From Salinisphaera sp. Q1T1-3 (GTDB taxonomy: Bacteria; Pseudomonadota; Gammaproteobacteria; Nevskiales; Salinisphaeraceae), in the NCBI RefSeq assembly GCF_003602005.1, contig NZ_QZWD01000006.1, positions 62,001 through 126,000 of the forward strand: a stretch of DNA of 64,000 nt, in the 5' to 3' direction. Under the pieces are notes generated by a model. The model was given only the letters and a program-made list of their open reading frames with translations, searched no databases and had not been told where the DNA came from. The position numbers and the translations under genes were made by a program. Within the stretch, counting starts at the first letter, position 1; each line of letters starts with the position of its first letter. This document shows positions 7,784 through 55,939 of the stretch, piece by piece.

Positions 7784-7816
7784 CGTCGATCTCCGTCTCG
7801 CGCCGCGTGAAGCCCA

Positions 7817-8262
7817 GGGCCTGTTGATGTTTCGTGAGAGTCCGCGTCAAGCGCTGTTCTGCGGCAAGACGAGGCGTAGCAGGCATAGCGTGTCATTCTG
7901 CCGTAGCGAGCGACAACGCCGGATTGCGGAAAAATGACCGCCGTCCTGTCGGGTTGCGCCCAAAAACCGGCCATGCGGCGTTGCACGGCTTGACCTTGGC
8001 ATGACCAAGGTCGGCGCCATGCGCCTTGCCTGGCCGGTTTTTGGGCGGCAACGCGGTCACGTGCGAAGTGTTATTAATCCGGCACCAAAACAGCTGACGA
8101 CGTCAGCTGTTTTCAACGCCATCGAAAAATAAATGCCGGCACCTGTCCGTCTCTTTATTTTCAATGGCTTCACGGCCGTTGGCCGTGGCGCGCGTGCTTT
8201 CGCACACGCGCGTTATCAACCCGAAAAATCATCTATTTTTATGCCGGGTTAATAACAGACCC
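7817..8262. repeat. Family B structured repeat, copy interrupted by the multi-hairpin element
   Basis: The left terminus GGGCCTGTTGATGTTTCG (7817-7834) and the following 90 bp match the complete copy at 55645. The internal part keeps a perfect hairpin, GACCTTGG/CCAAGGTC (7992-7999 with 8005-8012), nested inside a 15-bp inverted repeat GCCCAAAAACCGGCC/GGCCGGTTTTTGGGC. The right terminus appears as AACAGACCCTAG ending at 8265, separated from the rest by the 185-bp element at 8071-8255. The simplest reading is that element A inserted into this copy close to its right end. The left end lies 33 bp upstream of a LysR start codon. Confidence 0.72.
8071..8255 (+). repeat. Family A multi-hairpin element, copy 1 (inverted relative to copy 2)
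   Basis: A 185-bp element beginning TTATTAATCCGGC and ending GCCGGGTTAATAA, so its ends are imperfect inverted repeats. It contains five consecutive hairpins, including AAAACAGCTGACG paired with its complement, a stem that pairs AAAATAAA with TTTATTTT, CACGGCC paired with GGCCGTG, and GTGC-GAAA-GCAC with a GNRA-type loop. The sequence recurs in reverse orientation at 13791-13975 with only about five substitutions. It has no coding capacity and sits inside a family B repeat. Confidence 0.85.
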
Positions 8263-8433
8263 TAGCTGACGACAAGACGCCGTTCGCCAATCCAGGCATG
8301 ATTTTCATTCATGGATGTCATCAGAATAGGCGGCTTGCTCGAGTTTTTCGTGTCTCTAGAATGCGCGTATTGAATCAATCGGTGCGACCTGACGACGCGC
8401 CACGGCGCGGAGCCGGCCTGCGACGGCGGGTTA

Positions 8434-8724
8434 GACCGGTCGATGGGTCGTCCAAGCGTGCCGTGTTCGCCCACAAAGGTTTTCCAGAAGGTGCGAATCG
8501 GCGATCGCGGCGCCCCGATCCAGACCGGCCATGCTGCCGGGCGACTCGCGGCGATGGCTCTTGGGCGGCCCACGCGTCGCGCCGGCGCCCGGGAATCGAC
8601 AACACGATGGCAATACCGTGCTCCCGCACACCAGCGCAGAACCACAGCGTGGTGTAGGCGCTGCCTCATCCTGGCGTGAAACACAGGGCTTGGCGCGGAC
8701 TCGGACGACGTATCACCCGACCTC
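8434..8724. repeat. Family B structured repeat, old diverged copy
   Basis: Read against the reverse complement of the copy at 55645-55939, this segment aligns over its whole length. It has a degenerate left end (GACCGGTCGATGGGTCG), a hairpin region GATCGCGGCGCCCCGATC (8503-8520), TTGGGCGGCCC, GATGGCAATACCGTGCTC, CAGCGCAGAACCACA, and GGCTTGGCGCGGACTCGGACG near the right end. Divergence is much higher than for the other copies, so it is an old insertion. It fills most of the space before the MFS gene and explains the lack of a gene here. Confidence 0.65.
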
Positions 8725-8745
8725 GAGACGACAAGGCAAAACCGC

Positions 8746-9921
8746 ATGACATCATCACGATCGACGGCCTGGGGCGCCGTGTTTTCCATGACGCTCTGTG
8801 TCGCGATGCTGATCGCGTCCGAGTTCATGCCGGTCAGCCTTCTGACACCGATCGCTCACGGGCTCGATGCCACCGAAGGTCAGGCGGGGCAGGCCATTTC
8901 GATCAGCGGCTTCTTCGCGGTCGCGGCGAGCCTGCTGATCACCACCGTGGTGGGCCGACTCAACCGGAAATGGGTGCTCGTCGCGCTGACCGGCTGCATG
9001 CTGGTCTCGCTGGTTCTGATCGCCATCGCGCCTGATTTCATCGTGTTGATGATCGCGCGGGCGTTGCTCGGCATCTGTATTGGCGGCTTCTGGGCTCTCG
9101 CCACGGCCGTCATCATGCGGCTCGCGCCGCCGGACAAGGTTTCGAGCGCGCTGGCAACCATGTATACCGGCCAGGCTGTTGCGGCTGCCTTTGCTGCGCC
9201 CATTGGCAGCTATCTCGGCGGGCTGATCGGTTGGCGCGGTGTGTTCTGGGCCCTGGTGCCGCTGGTGGCCATCAATCTGGTCTGGCAGCTAATCAGCCTG
9301 CCGTCGCTACCCTCGCACAGTCGCCAGACCATGTCGGCCCTGCTCGGTGTCCTCAAACGTCCGTATTTCACGCGGGGTATCGCGGCCGTGATCTTCACTT
9401 TCGCGGGCGCGTTTTCGATGTTCACCTATCTGCGCCCGTTCCTGGAACATGTCACGGATGTGGACGTGACGGTATTGTCGGTGCTGTTTCTGGTGCTGGG
9501 CTGCGCCGGTTTCATCGGCACCTGGTTCGGCGGGCGACTGGCCAACGGTCATGTCATCCGGCTATTGCAGCTCTTGCCGACCGTCATGGGCCTGGTGACG
9601 CTCGCACTGCTGGGTTTCGGCCAGAGTGTGCTGGTCGCCGCTCTGCTGCTGGCGGTCTGGGGGGCCATGAATACTGCCATGTCGGTCGGCTGGATGGCCT
9701 GGATCTCGCAGAACATGGATGACGTGCCGGAGTCGGCCGGCAGCCTTATCGTGGCTGCCATTCAGAGCGCGATCCTTATCGGTGCCGCGCTCGGCGGCAC
9801 GCTGCTCGACCATTTCGGCATCACGGCAACGTTTGTGGGCAGCGCCGTTCTATCGGCTCTCGCCTTGCTGTTGATCGGTTCCGGCCAGAAGATGCTGAAA
9901 CCCGAAAGCCGAGGCCGCTGA
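8746..9921 (+). CDS. MFS transporter, 12-TM drug/sugar efflux type
   Basis: A 391-residue major facilitator with about twelve hydrophobic segments. The first helix contains the motif EFMPVSLLTPIA, which marks the AraJ/YdhP/PbuE-like DHA1 exporter group (E-F-x-P). The motif A-like loop RLNRKWVLVAL follows helix 2, and GFWALATAVIMRLAPPDKVSSAL lies in the helix 4-5 region. Such proteins exchange protons for sugars, purines or drugs across the inner membrane. The gene is alone on its strand: upstream is a decayed repeat and downstream an oppositely oriented ribokinase gene. A role in exporting excess sugar from the adjacent ribose-type uptake operon is possible but unproven. Confidence 0.9.
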   Translation: MTSSRSTAWGAVFSMTLCVAMLIASEFMPVSLLTPIAHGLDATEGQAGQAISISGFFAVAASLLITTVVGRLNRKWVLVALTGCMLVSLVLIAIAPDFIVLMIARALLGICIGGFWALATAVIMRLAPPDKVSSALATMYTGQAVAAAFAAPIGSYLGGLIGWRGVFWALVPLVAINLVWQLISLPSLPSHSRQTMSALLGVLKRPYFTRGIAAVIFTFAGAFSMFTYLRPFLEHVTDVDVTVLSVLFLVLGCAGFIGTWFGGRLANGHVIRLLQLLPTVMGLVTLALLGFGQSVLVAALLLAVWGAMNTAMSVGWMAWISQNMDDVPESAGSLIVAAIQSAILIGAALGGTLLDHFGITATFVGSAVLSALALLLIGSGQKMLKPESRGR

Positions 9922-9938
9922 TCCCTGAAATCGCGCGA

Positions 9939-9955
9939 CAGCGGTTTGACCGCTG
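9939..9955. terminator. Hairpin between convergent MFS and ribokinase genes
   Basis: CAGCGGT/ACCGCTG form a 7-bp stem with a 3-nt loop between two convergent genes. No T-run follows on either strand, so its strength as a terminator is uncertain. Confidence 0.4.
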
Positions 9956-10008
9956 GTTCGTCGGGGTGTCCCCGTCGGCGATGCCGTGCTGTGCTATGGC
10001 TCGATTGC

Positions 10009-10908
10009 CTATGGCAAGACAGCATCCAGCGCCGCTTGCACCGGCATGCCGGCCCGGGCGCCGGCTGCGCCTACTGACAGCCCGCCGGCCGTCACCGCCC
10101 GGCGTACGGCCTCGGCCACGGGCCGCTCTTCGGCCCGAGCCGCGGCGAACACGCCGGCAAAGGTATCGCCGGCACCGGTGGTGTCGACCACGGCCACGGA
10201 TGTTGCCGGGACGCGGCCTGTCTCGCCGCTCGTCGTATGCCAGAGCGCACCGTTGCCGCCCAGGGTGACGACCACGCCCACGTCGTAGCGTTGCGACAGT
10301 CTGGCGGCCAGTGCCGCGGCAGCATCGATATCATCCGGCTCGTCGGTGTCGCCGATCATCGCGGCTTCGCCGGCATTGACCATCAGCCAGTCGAGCGCCT
10401 CGGTGGCATAGGTGGCGAGCGGAACGGCCGGGGCGGCATTGAGGATGGTCTCGGCACCGGCGGCGCGGCCGGCCGTCAGCGTGGCGTTGACGAAGGTGGC
10501 CGGCGTTTCAAGCTGCGTGAGCACGACACGCGCGTCGGTGAACAGGGTCGTATCGTCGATGGTCTCGAGCGTGGCATTGGCGCCGGGCACGACGACGATG
10601 CAGTTCTCGCCGGCGTCGTCGACGTTGATCAGAGCGATGCCGCTGGCCCCGGAGACAGTGGCAAGGCCGCGTGTGTCGATATGCTCGCGGTCGAGCGTCT
10701 CGCGGATGCGGGTGCCGAAGTCGTCGCTGCCAACGGCGCCGATGAAGCGAACGTCGCCGCCGACGCGGGCGGCAGCCACGGCCTGATTGGCTCCCTTGCC
10801 ACCGTCGTGGACGGCGTAATCCGACGCCGTCAGCGTTTCCCCGGGCGCTGGATGATGAGACACGCGGGCGACAAGATCGATATTGGCGCTGCCGGCGACG
10901 ATGATCAT
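10009..10908 (-). CDS. rbsK: Ribokinase (PfkB family)
   Basis: A PfkB-family sugar kinase of about 299 residues. It starts MIIVAGSANIDLVARV, the ribokinase N-terminus. The substrate signature is GGKGANQAVAAARVGG, and the C-terminal signature DTTGAGDTFAGVFAA contains the catalytic Asp and the anion hole. The frame is open for 15 codons further upstream, but homology begins at the ATG at 10908. It is the distal gene of a row encoding a CUT2-type binding protein, permease and ATPase, so it probably phosphorylates the imported pentose to its 5-phosphate for the pentose phosphate pathway. RbsD and RbsR are absent here. A related substrate such as deoxyribose or another ketose cannot be excluded. 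Confidence 0.9.
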   Translation of the reverse strand: MIIVAGSANIDLVARVSHHPAPGETLTASDYAVHDGGKGANQAVAAARVGGDVRFIGAVGSDDFGTRIRETLDREHIDTRGLATVSGASGIALINVDDAGENCIVVVPGANATLETIDDTTLFTDARVVLTQLETPATFVNATLTAGRAAGAETILNAAPAVPLATYATEALDWLMVNAGEAAMIGDTDEPDDIDAAAALAARLSQRYDVGVVVTLGGNGALWHTTSGETGRVPATSVAVVDTTGAGDTFAGVFAAARAEERPVAEAVRRAVTAGGLSVGAAGARAGMPVQAALDAVLP

Positions 10909-11013
10909 GCGATTCGCCCGAGCGGCGATGGATGACAGAAGAAAGAAGAGCAAACGAACATCAACGAGCGGCCTTTCTGAACGAAGCGGATGAGCTGACT
11001 TTCGGGTATTCGA

Positions 11014-11802
11014 TCACAGACGGTCGCCTCGCGCAGCCGGATCGCTGCCGTTCGCACCGGTGATCGCTGCGACGATCCGCTCGCGAGTGATATCGGCGGT
11101 CCGCCAGTGGCCCACGGTCCGGCCGCGTCGCATGATCCATACGGTGTCGGCCACACGCATGACCTGTTCCAGATCGTGGCTGATGATCAGCTGGGCAATG
11201 TTGTCGGCCCTCAGCCGCGCGATGAGCTGCTCGACGGCGTCCCGTTCGCGCACGCCGAGTGCGGCGGTCGGTTCGTCCATGATCACGAGCGTCGAGCCCC
11301 AGCTGGCTGCCCGGCCGATGGCGATCGATTGCCGCTGGCCGCCGGACAACCGCCGCACGCGAGACCGAACCGGGGGCATGTTGACCAGCAGCCGTTCCAG
11401 ATGGGCCTGGCTCTGGGCGATCATCCGACGCCGGTCGAGCAATCGCAGTGGCCCGAGGCCACGCTTGAGCTCCCGGTTTAAAAACATGTTCTGCCAGACC
11501 GTCAGGTCCTCGACGAGTGCAAGATCCTGATAGACCGTTTCGATGCCGCGGCTGCGGGCCTCGGTGGGCGAGGACAGACGCATCGGCTGTCCGTTGAAGT
11601 GCACGTCGCCGTCGTCGAAGGGCTGGACGCCGGTCAGGCAACGGATGAGGGTCGATTTACCGGCCCCGTTGTCCCCGACGAGTGCGGTCACCTGGCCGCG
11701 CATGCAGCTCAGATCGGCACCCGACAATGCCTGCACGGCGCCAAACGATTTCGTCAGCCCCCGGACTTCGAGGACCGGGCCGGGATACGTGGCCGCACTC
11801 AT
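11014..11802 (-). CDS. Sugar ABC transporter ATP-binding protein, single-domain type
   Basis: A 262-residue ATPase with Walker A GDNGAGKST (43-51), Q-loop VYQDLAL, signature LSGGQRQS and Walker B LVIMDEPTAALG, followed by the switch His in IISHDLEQV. RbsA-type ATPases normally have two such domains and about 500 residues. This protein has only one, like FrcA of rhizobial fructose/ribose transporters, so it presumably works as a homodimer. The frame continues far upstream, but the ATG at 11802 overlaps the permease stop as ATGA and the protein homology begins there. It energises uptake through the permease encoded just upstream. Confidence 0.92.
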   Translation of the reverse strand: MSAATYPGPVLEVRGLTKSFGAVQALSGADLSCMRGQVTALVGDNGAGKSTLIRCLTGVQPFDDGDVHFNGQPMRLSSPTEARSRGIETVYQDLALVEDLTVWQNMFLNRELKRGLGPLRLLDRRRMIAQSQAHLERLLVNMPPVRSRVRRLSGGQRQSIAIGRAASWGSTLVIMDEPTAALGVRERDAVEQLIARLRADNIAQLIISHDLEQVMRVADTVWIMRRGRTVGHWRTADITRERIVAAITGANGSDPAARGDRL

Positions 11803-12761
11803 TGCTGGAACCGACTGAGCACCGCGGCGGCGATCACCACGATGCCGACGGCGATCGGCTGGTAGAACGACGACACCTGCAACAGGGTGAAACCGTTGAG
11901 CAGGGTGGTCAGCACGAGCGCGCCGGCGACCGTACCGAGCATGGAGGCACGGCCCCCGAACAGGCTCGAGCCGCCGAGCACCACGGCGGCGATGGAACTG
12001 AGGAGCTCGTCCGTGGCGATCGCCGGATCGGCGCCCCCGGTGCGGGCGACCAGCAAGACCGCGGCGACGCCGACAAGCGCTCCGTTGATGGCATAGACCG
12101 CGATGCGCATGGCGCCCACAGCGATCCCCATGTTGCGCGCCGCATCGCGATTGCCGCCCGTGGCCAGCACGTGCGTGCCGAACGCGGTGTAGCGAAAAAT
12201 GATGTGGGCGGCCAGAACCACGACGAGCGCGATCAGATAGAAATAGCGGACCGGCCCGAGCGAGCCGAGCGCCAGCGTCTGCAGAAAGGGGCTGAACACC
12301 GAGAATGACTGGCCGTTCGAGGCGATCAGGGCGACGCCGCTCATTACGCCCAGCATGCCTAGCGTAGCGATGAAGTCGTTGACCTTCAGTCGTGCGATGA
12401 TCAGCCCGTTGATCACGCCGACCGCCGCACCCGCGGCGATCGCTGCGCCGATTGCCGCTGCCGTACCCCAGCCGGCGTTGTAGGTCAGCCCGAACACGAC
12501 CGCCGACCACGGCAGGTTCGCGGCAATCGACAGATCGATTCCGGCGGCCACGATCGTGAACTGCTGGGCGCTGGCCAGCACGATCAGGATCGAGGCCGAG
12601 ACGAGCAGTGCCGTGATGTTTCCCCAGGTCAGGAAATAGGGCGAGAGCAGGGAGAAAGCGGCCCCGATCAGCACGAGGCCGATCAAGGCCGCGTTGTCAC
12701 CCCAGAACGTCGGGTCACGCAGACGATCGCCGAAGCGGTTGGCAAGAGCGGTCGAGGCCAT
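11799..12761 (-). CDS. Sugar ABC transporter permease, CUT2 family
   Basis: A 320-residue RbsC/FrcC-like inner-membrane permease with eight to ten hydrophobic segments. Diagnostic segments are AAGIDLSIAANLPWSAVVFG near residue 75, the coupling-loop motif FGTHVLATGGNRDAARNMGI, and VLGGSSLFGGRASMLGTVAGA near the C-terminus. It lies 3 bp after the binding-protein stop codon and overlaps the ATPase start by 4 nt, so the four genes form a tightly coupled operon with binding protein first and ribokinase last. The likely cargo is ribose or a similar monosaccharide. The second CUT2 permease fragment at bases 1-510 is a separate system. Confidence 0.93.
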   Translation of the reverse strand: MASTALANRFGDRLRDPTFWGDNAALIGLVLIGAAFSLLSPYFLTWGNITALLVSASILIVLASAQQFTIVAAGIDLSIAANLPWSAVVFGLTYNAGWGTAAAIGAAIAAGAAVGVINGLIIARLKVNDFIATLGMLGVMSGVALIASNGQSFSVFSPFLQTLALGSLGPVRYFYLIALVVVLAAHIIFRYTAFGTHVLATGGNRDAARNMGIAVGAMRIAVYAINGALVGVAAVLLVARTGGADPAIATDELLSSIAAVVLGGSSLFGGRASMLGTVAGALVLTTLLNGFTLLQVSSFYQPIAVGIVVIAAAVLSRFQQ

Positions 12762-12764
12762 GGA

Positions 12765-13766
12765 TTACGGGGTGCCGAACGGGTCTTTGAAATCGAAGAA
12801 CGGTTTCGGGAAAGCCTTGAGCGCGGCCGCCGCGTTGTCCGAGGTGATCAGTTTGATCGGCGAGGTGATATCGTCCGGCACCGGCTTGCCCTGCACCAGC
12901 TTCAGACAGGCCTGAACGGCCATCTGGCCTTCGGCATAGGGATACTGCGAGATCGTGGCGTCCAGCGTGCCGTTCTTGACCGCCTTGATGGCCTCGGTCA
13001 CGCCGTCGACGCTCACGACCGTGACCTTGCCTTTCTTGCCGGCGTTGAGCACGGCGCGGGCGGCCCCGAGCCCCATCAAGTCGTTCGCCGCGAAGATGCC
13101 GGTAATGTCCGGGTGGGCACGCAGCATGGCCTCGGTCTTCGTCAGCGCCTTGTTGCGTTGATAATCGGCCGGCGTGGCCTGGACGATATCGAGCTTGCCC
13201 TTGACCGTATTACGAAAGGCGGTCTCACGGTTGATGCCGTTCTGTTCGCCGGGAATGCCTTCCAGAATCGCGACCTGGCCCTTGCCATCGAGCGCATCGA
13301 GCATGTGACGGGCGGCGATCCGGCCGGCCTCGCGGTTATCGGAGCCGATGAACGCGGCGAGCTTGAGCCCGGATTGCTTGACGGCCTTTTCGTCCAGCGC
13401 GGTATCCAGATTGATGATTGGCGTCCCGCGACGGGAAATGGGCAGAAGCGGTGTGATGACGTTCGTGCCGTTGACCGGGACCACGCCGTAGCAATTGAAC
13501 GGCTGGTTGGCCATGGTCGAGATCTTGTTGTTCTGACCGACCGTGTCCGTTTCGTTGCTGCCGGCCTGAACGGTCACCGGCACGCCGAGTTTCTTGCCCT
13601 CGGCAATGGCACCGTCGCGCAGCGCCTGCCAGTACGGGTTGGAGAAATCGCGTACGACGATGGCGATGTTGGCCTTGTCTGGTGCCGCGCTGGCCGCGCC
13701 GGCGGCCAGTACGCCGACCAGGCTCGTTGCCATCGCAAGTGAGCGAAGCAGTGTGGATGGTTTCAC
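12765..13766 (-). CDS. Periplasmic sugar-binding protein (RbsB-like)
   Basis: A 333-residue type I periplasmic binding protein with a Sec signal peptide (about 1-27, ending in AGAASAAPDKA). The first mature strand NIAIVVRDFSNPYWQALRDG is typical of ribose/fructose binding proteins. Later landmarks are MANQPFNCYGVVPVNGTN, AFIGSDNREAGRIAARHM and GIFAANDLMGLGAARAV. It is the first gene of the uptake operon. A GAGGAGACACC ribosome-binding region directly precedes the start. Only 24 bp upstream begins the 185-bp family A element, so the operon promoter must lie inside or beyond that element and the transcript may begin with its hairpins. Confidence 0.93.
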   Translation of the reverse strand: MKPSTLLRSLAMATSLVGVLAAGAASAAPDKANIAIVVRDFSNPYWQALRDGAIAEGKKLGVPVTVQAGSNETDTVGQNNKISTMANQPFNCYGVVPVNGTNVITPLLPISRRGTPIINLDTALDEKAVKQSGLKLAAFIGSDNREAGRIAARHMLDALDGKGQVAILEGIPGEQNGINRETAFRNTVKGKLDIVQATPADYQRNKALTKTEAMLRAHPDITGIFAANDLMGLGAARAVLNAGKKGKVTVVSVDGVTEAIKAVKNGTLDATISQYPYAEGQMAVQACLKLVQGKPVPDDITSPIKLITSDNAAAALKAFPKPFFDFKDPFGTP

Positions 13767-13790
13767 GGTGTCTCCTCGTTGGCGCTTGTT

Positions 13791-13975
13791 TTATTAACCC
13801 GGCCTAAAAATAGATGATTTTTCGGGTTGATAACGCGCGTGTGCGAAAGCACGCGCGCCACGGCCAACGGCCGTGAAGCCATTGAAAATAAAAAGACGGA
13901 CAAGTGCCGGCTTTTATTTTTCGATGGCGTTGAAAACAGCTGACGTCGTCAGCTGTTTTGGTGCCGGATTAATAT
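13791..13975 (-). repeat. Family A multi-hairpin element, copy 2 (upstream of sugar operon)
   Basis: A 185-bp inverted copy of 8071-8255, about 97 percent identical by eye. It begins TTATTAACCCGGC and ends GCCGGATTAATAT. The hairpins, in order from the left, are AAAAAT/ATTTTT within AACCCG...CGGGTT, the GAAA-loop stem flanked by CGCGCG repeats, CACGGCC/GGCCGTG, a long A/T stem between GCCAT and ATGGC, and AAAACAGCTGACG with its complement. Relative to the downstream gene it has the same orientation as copy 1. From 13976 to 14134 I see no gene or clear signal. Confidence 0.85.
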
Positions 13976-14134
13976 TTATCGCGCGTCATCGCACGGCCAG
14001 CTGGAACCGGCCGCTGCGGCGTGCGTGACGTCATTCGAGCATGCGCCGCGCGCCGGGTCTGTTAGCTATTGGATTGAGCCAGGTCGTGGGCGAGCGATCT
14101 GCGACCCGGGACCGCAGGGCAGCCTCGATGCACG

Positions 14135-14881
14135 TCAGATACAGATTCGCATCGGCAGGCCGATCGCATCGCAGGGCGGCGGGTCCGTCGGCAGCGTGAC
14201 ATGGCGGCCCGCGGCGATGCGTTCGGCACAATGGAGCGCGGCATAGGCATCGGCGATATCGTCATCGGCGACACGTGTGGCCGCATGCGCCTGACGGGCC
14301 TGCTCAAACGCCTGGCGGCCGTAGTCGCGAAAGATCAGTCGTAGCCGATCATGGGCGCCCAGGCCGGATTTCTTCCGATGGGCCATGGGTTGCAGATCGT
14401 CCGGGGTGCCGCTTTGCCAGCAGGCGAATGCCAGCTCCGGATGAATCTCGTGGACGATCTCGCGCAGCGCGGGTCGCTCGGTGAGCGCCTGTTCGACTTC
14501 CCGGATCTTGGGAAACAGGTTGAACGCCTGGGCCGAAACCCGGCCGGCCCCGCGAGCGGCGTTCAGATCGCTGGCGTGATGCTGGGCCGCGCGTGGGGAC
14601 ATGCCCTCGGTATCGGCGTGCACGGCGTCACGGGTCGCGGTCCAGAAGATGCTCGATCCCCGCGTGCCGCCGAGGCTTTGTCGGGCGCGAACATCGCATT
14701 CACGGCGGCCGTGGCTGGCCAGCCCGATCGGCATGTCGATGGCCACGACCGGGATGTCGTGTTCGGCGCCGAGTTCATCCAGCAGCGCGAGTAGATCACG
14801 CCGTACGACGACGGTGTCGCGTCTCGCGGCCACCCAACCGGCCGGGCAGCCGTCGATACCGATGCAAGTGTTGTCGAGCAT
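14135..14881 (-). CDS. DUF429 family protein (predicted RNase H-like nuclease)
   Basis: A 248-residue protein of the DUF429 family. It begins CIGIDGCPAGWVAARRD, an RNase H-like first strand with an acidic residue in IGIDG. It continues with VVAIDMPIGLA and then REC-x-x-x-AR-x-x-LGG-x-x-SSIF, and later EIHPELAFACW and HDRLRLI. These motifs recur across DUF429 proteins, which are predicted from fold to be nucleases or hydrolases, but no reaction is established to my knowledge. It is a single gene, not obviously in an operon. The start codon lies 12 bp from a small inverted-repeat element, so its promoter probably lies in or beyond that element. Confidence 0.85.
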   Translation of the reverse strand: MLDNTCIGIDGCPAGWVAARRDTVVVRRDLLALLDELGAEHDIPVVAIDMPIGLASHGRRECDVRARQSLGGTRGSSIFWTATRDAVHADTEGMSPRAAQHHASDLNAARGAGRVSAQAFNLFPKIREVEQALTERPALREIVHEIHPELAFACWQSGTPDDLQPMAHRKKSGLGAHDRLRLIFRDYGRQAFEQARQAHAATRVADDDIADAYAALHCAERIAAGRHVTLPTDPPPCDAIGLPMRICI

Positions 14882-19631: not shown

Positions 19632-20052
19632 GTGGCCTGTTGAGGCGCAGTCCAGTCGCTGCGCCGCCGTTCAGGCATTCGCCAGGCAAGGCGCGAGAAG
19701 CGATATCGGCTCGGATGCGCCCAACGATCGACGAGCACCACCGCACGGCGAATTTCAGGACGCAGCCTGTCGGCAAGTGAGCCATCGCCCGGTCATGCGA
19801 TGTTGTCGTTCACTCACGCATGTCGCACAGCGACACCCGTGCTCGGCACGCCTTGGCTTGGCGTCGCCTGGCCGGTTTTCGCGGCCCAACCCTTCGGGAC
19901 AAGCGCCCCGAAATCAAAAACATGGCGGCAATACAGCGTTGTAGCCTGCTGGTGCAGAATGACTGCACGGCGCGCACTACGCCTTGTCTTGCCGCCCATC
20001 GTCAATTTCAGGGCGCGCTTGGCGCGGACTCGCACGAAACATCAACAGGCCC
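19632..20052. repeat. Family B structured repeat, long copy
   Basis: The right half (19880-20052) is the reverse complement of the left half of the 55645 copy: GGCCCAACCC, GGGACAAGC, CCCGAAATCAAA, GGCGGCAATACAGCG, TGCAGAATGAC, then GGCGCGGACTCGCACGAAACATC and the end CAACAGGCCC followed by CTAG. A degenerate left end GTGGCCTGTTGA is seen at 19632, and GCCAGGCAAGGCGCGAGAAGCG also matches. The middle is longer than in other copies. The CTAG at 20052-20055 contains the TAG stop codon of the next gene on the minus strand. The rest of the gap (19367-19631) holds nothing I recognise. Confidence 0.75.
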
Positions 20053-20468
20053 TAGAAAAGCGATTGCTGCGGGTCGGGCGGGCGCGTGCCGAAGCGGCGC
20101 AGCTGGGCACAGGCCTGGGCCAGATAACTGGCGATACTCGACAGCGCGCTGATGTCGGCAAAGGACATCCCGGCGATCAGGGTGCCGGCATCGTCACGAC
20201 GTTTTTCCGAGCAGTGTTGCAACAACGTCATCAGCTGCTCGGGATCGAGCGGCGACTGGGTTTCGGGATCCTTCCAGCGCATCAACTCGTCGGGTCGGTC
20301 GAGCTGGGCGGCGAAGGCCAAGTCATGCAGCAGCGCGGCGGCCACAGCCAGGTCCGCGCCGTGGCCGGTGGCGGCCTGGCGACGGGCGAACTCCTGACAG
20401 GCCTCGGCGTCCACGCCGGCCATGCCGGCCAGCACATCACGCATCGGCGTGTCGTCGGCGTAGGTCAT
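20052..20468 (-). CDS. Hypothetical protein
   Basis: A 138-residue soluble protein that I cannot assign. It is helix-rich and Ala/Leu-rich, with the central segment AVAAALLHDLAFAAQLDRPD and a C-terminal FADISALSSIASYLAQACAQ, and no signal peptide or membrane segment. The HD pair in LLHDLAF is not part of a recognisable HD-hydrolase pattern. It lies 63 bp downstream of ddl on the same strand and could be co-transcribed with it. Its TAG stop is formed by the CTAG end of a family B repeat, so its C-terminus may have been shortened or altered by that insertion. Codon and amino-acid use look like those of a real gene. Confidence 0.6.
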   Translation of the reverse strand: MTYADDTPMRDVLAGMAGVDAEACQEFARRQAATGHGADLAVAAALLHDLAFAAQLDRPDELMRWKDPETQSPLDPEQLMTLLQHCSEKRRDDAGTLIAGMSFADISALSSIASYLAQACAQLRRFGTRPPDPQQSLF

Positions 20469-50101: not shown

Positions 50102-50133
50102 TGCGCGGACTCGCACGAAACATCAACAGGCCC
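50102..50133. repeat. Family B repeat, terminal fragment upstream of purC
   Basis: Only one end is kept: GCGCGGACTCGCACGAAAC followed by ATCAACAGGCCC, then CTAG at 50133-50136. It matches the ends at 20020-20052 and 55645-55675. It lies 41 bp before the purC start, so it may lie within the purC promoter or leader. Confidence 0.75.
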
Positions 50134-50176
50134 TAGAATTTCGCCCTTTGTCGATCCGCTGACAGGACCGCCCGCC

Positions 50177-55612: not shown

Positions 55613-55644
55613 GGCGCGTGGCAACGAAACCTTCATCGAGACTA

Positions 55645-55939
55645 GGGCCTGTTGATGTTTCTTGCGAGTCCGCGCCAAGCGCTGTTCTGCGGCAAGACGA
55701 GGCGTAGCAGGCATGGCGTGTCGTTCTGCGCCAGCGTGCCAGAGCGCTGTATTGCCGTCGCGTCTTTGATTTCGGGGTGCTTGTCCCTTTGGGTTGGGCC
55801 GCCCATGAAAAATCGACGATTGGCGCCCTGCGGCATTACGAGTCTGGATCGTGGCACGCCACGATCGGCGACTCGCGCCTTGCCGGACACACGGCGGTCT
55901 CTCGACGAAAAGGCACTCGAACGAAACATCAACAGGCCC
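55645..55939. repeat. Family B structured repeat, complete reference copy
   Basis: A 295-bp element with perfect 17-bp inverted ends, GGGCCTGTTGATGTTTC (55645-55661) and GAAACATCAACAGGCCC (55923-55939), and weaker pairing for ten more bases. It is flanked by CTAG (55642-55645) and CAAG (55939-55942). The interior holds a perfect hairpin, GATCGTGG-CACG-CCACGATC (55847-55866), and GGCAAGACGAGGCGTAGCAG-like DNA shared with 7817. No coding capacity. It separates tetR from alkB. Confidence 0.88.

Follow-up and report, generated by a model that had tools for sequence, protein, structure and literature searches.

Two near-identical inverted copies of a 185-bp element lie in the window analysed here, a 64,000-nucleotide stretch of Salinisphaera sp. 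Q1T1-3 (contig NZ_QZWD01000006.1, positions 62,001 to 126,000 of the forward strand). Each copy is very probably a non-autonomous miniature inverted-repeat transposable element (MITE) that inserts at TA with a 2-bp duplication and is moved by the transposase of another element, most likely one of the IS630/Tc1-mariner type. An earlier note, made from the letters of the window, had described the two copies as near-identical, inverted and bounded by imperfect terminal inverted repeats (TIRs) of the TTAAYCCGGC type. All of this is confirmed: the arms (8072-8255 and 13791-13974) form an inverted repeat of 184 nt each with 98% complementarity and a spacing of 5535 nt, and the TIRs are imperfect (left TTAATCC, right TTAACCC). 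The cores bounded by the flanking TA measure 179 bp apiece, namely copy 1 at 8074..8252 on the plus strand (TA at 8072-8073 and 8253-8254) and copy 2 at 13794..13972 on the minus strand (TA at 13792-13793 and 13973-13974). A core of 179 bp is too short for a transposase gene, and because the MITE has no gene, a transposase acting on the TTAAYCCGGC ends must move it. The contexts of the two copies differ, as the copy at 8071 is nested within another repeat and the copy at 13791 is a solitary insertion.

The element is abundant in its own genome. BLAST found at least 40 full-length copies there (all of the best 40 of 101 candidates; pieces of 60 nt or less were excluded from the counts), and 66 matches were obtained with a core pattern allowing 3 mismatches at most, compared with 0 for the reversed control. 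A profile search of the fetched loci yielded 75 distinct matches, 61 of them near full length (starting at position 4 or before and ending at position 180 or after), including the low-scoring L150. The earlier note had proposed a covariance-model search of related genomes; this search matched the own genome in at least 86 places and had matches in 13 of the 14 genomes of the genus, counts that may be low because at most the best 150 candidates per genome were scored. BLAST matches were found in 12 of the 14 genus genomes, the own genome included, and outside the genus a BLAST search across 47 genomes returned a single match of 33 nt. No match to the 185-bp element was found in the plasmid and phage collections searched. 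In a scan of the genome collection with the hairpin-1 pattern, seven stretches were recovered: the record of Salinisphaera sp. NP40 (L108) matches the element profile over 39 positions (E 3e-07), and the best of the other six, which match the profile weakly or in the region of hairpin 1 alone, has E 0.0059.

In a tree that includes 60 own-genome copies (the 61 minus L150, a set also used for the drift tests below), these copies form one clade (support 0.745) and 14 sampled copies from genome G007 form another (support 0.952). On average, copies are 94.2% identical to each other in the own genome and 96.3% in G007, against 84.7% between the two. Five G002 copies do not form one clade, and three G006 copies do so with a support of only 0.312. 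The element has thus multiplied independently in two species or more. The earlier note had set out the opposite case, that of only two copies, no relatives and no conserved pairing; the element departs from it on all three points. A third small element, starting with GGAACCTCTGATC, seems to break five-hairpin copies of the own genome at one internal place (L090 and L094).

Evidence for the mode of insertion comes from a second non-autonomous repeat family in the same genome, which has TAGGGCCTGTTAACAC-type ends and a mosaic hairpin interior. Among the 61 near-full-length copies, 35 are nested in a site of this second repeat (16 in one orientation and 19 in the other), 17 are solitary and 9 match the second repeat on one side only, some of them by chance. 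The unfilled end of the second repeat, GGCCTGTTAACAC, has 66 matches in the genome (25-nt pattern with up to 3 mismatches; reversed control 0), and of 14 end pairs, 9 are without the five-hairpin element and have 159-281 bp between their two ends. Filled sites read CCTGT-TA-[TTAAYCC...GGRTTAA]-TA-ACAC with small variations. Since a single TA stands in the empty site and two stand in a filled one, the copies most likely arose by independent insertions with a 2-bp TA duplication, so the target duplication that the earlier note wanted checked is seen in the comparison of filled and empty paralogous sites (35 nested copies, 66 empty ends). Inspected by eye, 16 of the 17 solitary copies have TA on both sides, as do both cores in the window; the solitary targets are YTAA in 12 and ATAA in 4, and L104 is without TA at both ends. 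One GTTAAC site in the second repeat is preferred, and the end of this repeat is the element's favourite target. The nesting of 35 of the 61 copies might also mean that the 185-bp piece and the surrounding repeat make up a single larger mosaic repeat rather than two elements, but we regard this as extremely improbable in view of the 17 solitary copies, the two orientations of the nested ones and the 66 outer ends without the element. The proposal of a miniature mobile element in the earlier note is therefore well founded, given the high copy number, the TA duplication, the paralogous empty sites, the spread across the genus and the separate clades in two genomes.

A TA target together with ends beginning YTAAYCCG would fit the IS630 family. 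A search of the genus for IS630 gave matches in 5 of the 14 genomes. Five IS630 copies are present in G007, four of them identical over 1113 nt and the fifth differing at 18 positions; their ends, CTAATCCG and CTAACCC(G/A), share 7 of their first 8 bases with the element on either side, the T/C difference included. In a search for TA-flanked repeats, the relatives ISAzo32 and IS885 were found to begin with CTAAC at both ends, and the ends of a third IS630 relative, from Azotobacter, begin with CTAAG and CTAAT. One of the five G007 copies of IS630, at locus L135, has CTAAYCCG ends and sits inside a five-hairpin element.

Two fragments, one at a contig end of the own genome and the other in G001, share 20 and 21 of 24 nt with the right end of the element and are 90% identical to each other over 59 nt; possibly they are termini of the parent element. 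These fragments (L149 1757-1836 and L178 1500-1560) have TTAACCCGGC-type ends, common to two species, and their neighbours look like transposase remnants that we take to be of the IS4 type. The TTAACCCGGC-ended L149 fragment was tried as the parent itself and rejected, as the neighbouring transposase seems to be a separate insertion with other ends. A further search of 85 genomes of the order turned up one related fragment, in G001; apart from it, G002 and G007 gave short matches to the end and G078 a weak one. A degenerate pattern for the possible last residues of this fragment gave 3 matches in 369 genomes (reversed control 2), which are the fragment itself and two unlike transposases.

The description of each copy as a series of consecutive hairpins also holds, as the folds are far more stable than expected from shuffled sequences. 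For copy 1, folded as DNA, the energy is -52.2 kcal/mol (shuffles -25.2 +/- 3.1; z -8.7), and copy 2 folds as RNA at -83.2 kcal/mol on the minus strand (shuffles -45.8 +/- 4.2; z -8.9) and at -85.8 kcal/mol on the plus strand (shuffles -53.3 +/- 4.2), with 0 shuffles as stable in all three tests. The terminal repeats pair to form a closing stem, inside which stand four hairpins; at the right end there is an alternative hairpin, where a third TIR-like copy within the element, TTATYAACCCG, lies opposite the right terminal repeat. In copy 1 (plus strand) and copy 2, respectively, hairpin 1 lies at 8087..8113 and 13933-13959, with 87.8% of its cells paired across species; hairpin 2, a long interrupted stem, at 8118..8168 and 13878-13928; hairpin 3 at 8171..8187 and 13859-13875; and hairpin 4 at 8188..8211 and 13835-13858. 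The right-end hairpin 5 (8213..8255 and 13791-13833), with the internal TIR-like TTATCAACCCG, is an alternative to the closing stem.

Between lineages of the element, the fold is kept by two-sided changes. In an alignment (A2) of 26 chosen sequences that come from 11 genomes, 91.3% of the cells are paired, and sliding the partners lowers pairing to 37.5-44.1%. Two-sided changes are present in 18 of the 59 pairs, compared with 10.8 +/- 1.9 in shuffles (0/500 as high), a test that related sequences can pass without structure. They are most frequent in hairpin 4 (7/9 pairs) and hairpin 2 (9/18), and hairpin 3 has them in 1/7. The final covariation figure rests on a chosen register, because the first register of hairpin 4 (70% of cells paired; 14 pairs with two-sided changes, 60/500 shuffles as high) performed more poorly and was replaced by the minimum-energy one. 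RNAalifold alone predicts 32 pairs, 10 of them with two-sided changes. The signal is weaker in the right-end hairpin, where 79.5% of cells are paired and 6 pairs have two-sided changes (160/500 shuffles as high); its count of two-sided cells and its covariation score are each reached by 1/500 shuffles.

Within the genome a different pattern is evident. Private changes, present in no more than 2 of the 60 own copies, are equally frequent in stems (77/6233, 1.24%) and in loops (32/3060, 1.05%). Commoner variants are rarer in stems (92/6233) than in loops (97/3060), where a single column contributes 29 of the 97. Among the 229 changed pair cells in these copies, 5 are two-sided Watson-Crick, 26 one-sided Watson-Crick, 63 GT, 52 AC and 83 other mismatches. 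GT and AC cells are likewise balanced across species (71 vs 63), which argues against a dedicated one-strand RNA but not against any RNA role, as equal transcription of the copies from either side would also give a balance. Pairing is thus kept as lineages of the element diverge but is not evidently policed in inserted copies, with no strand preferred. Since private changes after insertion do not spare the stems, the fold is apparently of use to the element and not to regulation in the host.

Palindromic DNA undergoes correction by template switching or gene conversion, and the fold might be maintained by such repair of imperfect palindromes rather than by selection for transposition. The lack of strand bias would agree with this, but only 5 of the 229 changed pair cells are two-sided Watson-Crick, against 135 unpaired and 63 GT, so that correction is slow inside inserted copies, though it might act over longer times; we consider this explanation possible though doubtful. 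It is also conceivable, but rather unlikely, that the hairpin fold is part of the transposition substrate, which would make this a DDE-type TA-targeting element that needs a folded single strand or a cruciform. If true, the shape of the DNA would be under selection as long as a lineage is active, and no more once a copy has landed.

The position of copy 2 bears on a regulatory role. The gene of the sugar-binding protein (12765..13766, minus strand) has a GTG start at 13764-13766, and copy 2 is separated from it by 24 nt (13767-13790, counted from 13791), exactly the distance given in the earlier note. A promoter scan of 13740-14260 found no promoter-like site, and the leader of the gene probably contains copy 2. 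A crude open reading frame calling had placed copy 2 inside a reading frame; this was wrong, and its gene-context calls were discarded. The genus relative G005 has an orthologous operon with 77% identity over 3.8 kb (10041-13781), collinear with the window including the next gene, but its leader is without the element. This shows absence of the element and not an exact empty allele, because the junction is too diverged. The earlier note had offered a structured regulatory module as the other possible reading, that is, a host RNA or leader regulator whose fold is kept to control the sugar operon and other genes. The proximity of copy 2 to the start codon and the multi-branch fold with covariation speak for such a regulator, yet the G005 operon lacks the element, private changes fall equally on stems and loops, the GT and AC changes (63 and 52) show no strand preference, and 35 of the 61 copies lie in another repeat. 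Moreover, Rfam covariance models over 7900-14100 gave zero matches up to E 1. A host regulator is thus quite improbable.

The earlier note had further described the two copies as bracketing the sugar operon. For 61 copies spread over 3.87 Mb, chance predicts 5.3 pairs of neighbours no more than 5.72 kb apart, and 6 were observed among 60 places (taken from covariance-model matches), the window pair included, so the bracketing looks like chance. Inverted arms of 184 nt are long enough for homologous recombination, and at 98% identity those of the window could in principle allow inversion of the block. An invertible or composite unit that flips or moves the 5.5-kb sugar block is nevertheless very hard to credit, as the number of close pairs equals chance, the contexts of the copies differ, and the G005 operon is collinear with the right flank, the side of the MFS gene falling outside the aligned block. 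Nothing in the compared sequences points to a switch by inversion, or to a composite transposon, around the sugar genes.

The outer repeat around copy 1 extends over about 7815..8264; its left limit is inferred from a CAGGGCCTGTT match at 7815-7825 and its right limit (8264) is read directly from the sequence. Further TAGGGCCTGTT matches in the window are located at 20044-20054, 50125-50135 and 55643-55653. A 40-nt inverted repeat (7818-7857 and 8683-8722, 75% complementary) flanks copy 1 on both sides, and a similar motif was spotted by eye near another copy, L037.

Taken together, the MITE would insert at TA, leaving TA on either side, and its TTAAYCCGGC ends would be recognised by a trans-acting transposase, most likely of the IS630/Tc1-mariner type. 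The fold would be maintained in the transposing lineage, or by template-switch repair of palindromes, and would not be needed by the host at the landing place of a copy; copy 2 probably joined the mRNA leader of the sugar operon as a by-product. Several points weigh against this MITE reading. A parent element was not found in the own genome or in the genus searches, and a search of the own genome for IS630 by its DDE_3 domain (PF13358) gave no match. The ends of the G007 IS630 agree with the element at only 9 and 12 of 24 nt, and the two TTAACCCGGC-type fragments are too short to name. Two-sided changes are nearly lacking in hairpin 1 (0/12 pairs) and in the closing stem (1/13). By sequence alone, a TA duplication looks the same as a TA that belongs to one end of the element, and the intergenic junction in G005 is not alignable base by base.

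These results add a MITE family that is rich in copies, extends across the genus and offers numerous filled and empty sites. They also tell apart two levels at which a fold may be kept, being conserved between lineages of the element and apparently unconstrained within inserted copies. Repeated covarying hairpins should not lightly be called regulatory RNAs, and the role of hairpins in transposition becomes a testable question.

In all the features examined, namely size (<200 bp), lack of a transposase gene, TIRs, an apparent TA duplication and many dispersed copies, the element agrees with bacterial MITEs. A literature search for a Salinisphaera MITE, or for a genome paper on repetitive or insertion sequences (IS) in Salinisphaera, found none in the library searched. 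The small repeats described in PMC2229807, among them RUP, ERIC, Correia and CIR, are mostly TA-ended and have stable folds. RUP of Streptococcus pneumoniae, which is 107 bp long, resembles the present element in having no gene, in its terminal repeats and TA target, and in its tendency to insert into other mobile elements, in the case of RUP other IS elements; RUP is also linked to an IS630-type element (IS630-Spn1), as the present element probably is (PMC2229807). The likeness is one of description and not of sequence, and RUP has its match in IS630-Spn1, whereas no IS matching the present element was found; for RUP, a five-hairpin fold is absent from the description in that account (PMC2229807). 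ERIC/IRU (RU-1) and Correia/NEMIS share TA ends, target duplication and strong secondary structure and may enter mRNAs, but in the same account they form long stem-loops by pairing of their ends, whereas the present element has a closing stem, four internal hairpins and a right-end alternative (PMC2229807). CIR of Caulobacter and Brucella likewise has two or more hairpin arms, which are reported to be conserved, but no terminal repeats are listed for it in PMC2229807, in contrast to the terminal repeats and TA duplication here. The bcr1-bcr3 repeats of the Bacillus cereus group, according to PMC3446304, are also MITE-like intergenic repeats found in untranslated regions, in another host. What is unusual in the Salinisphaera element is its multi-branch fold with tested covariation, and the conservation of this fold at the level of lineages as against an apparently neutral drift after insertion.

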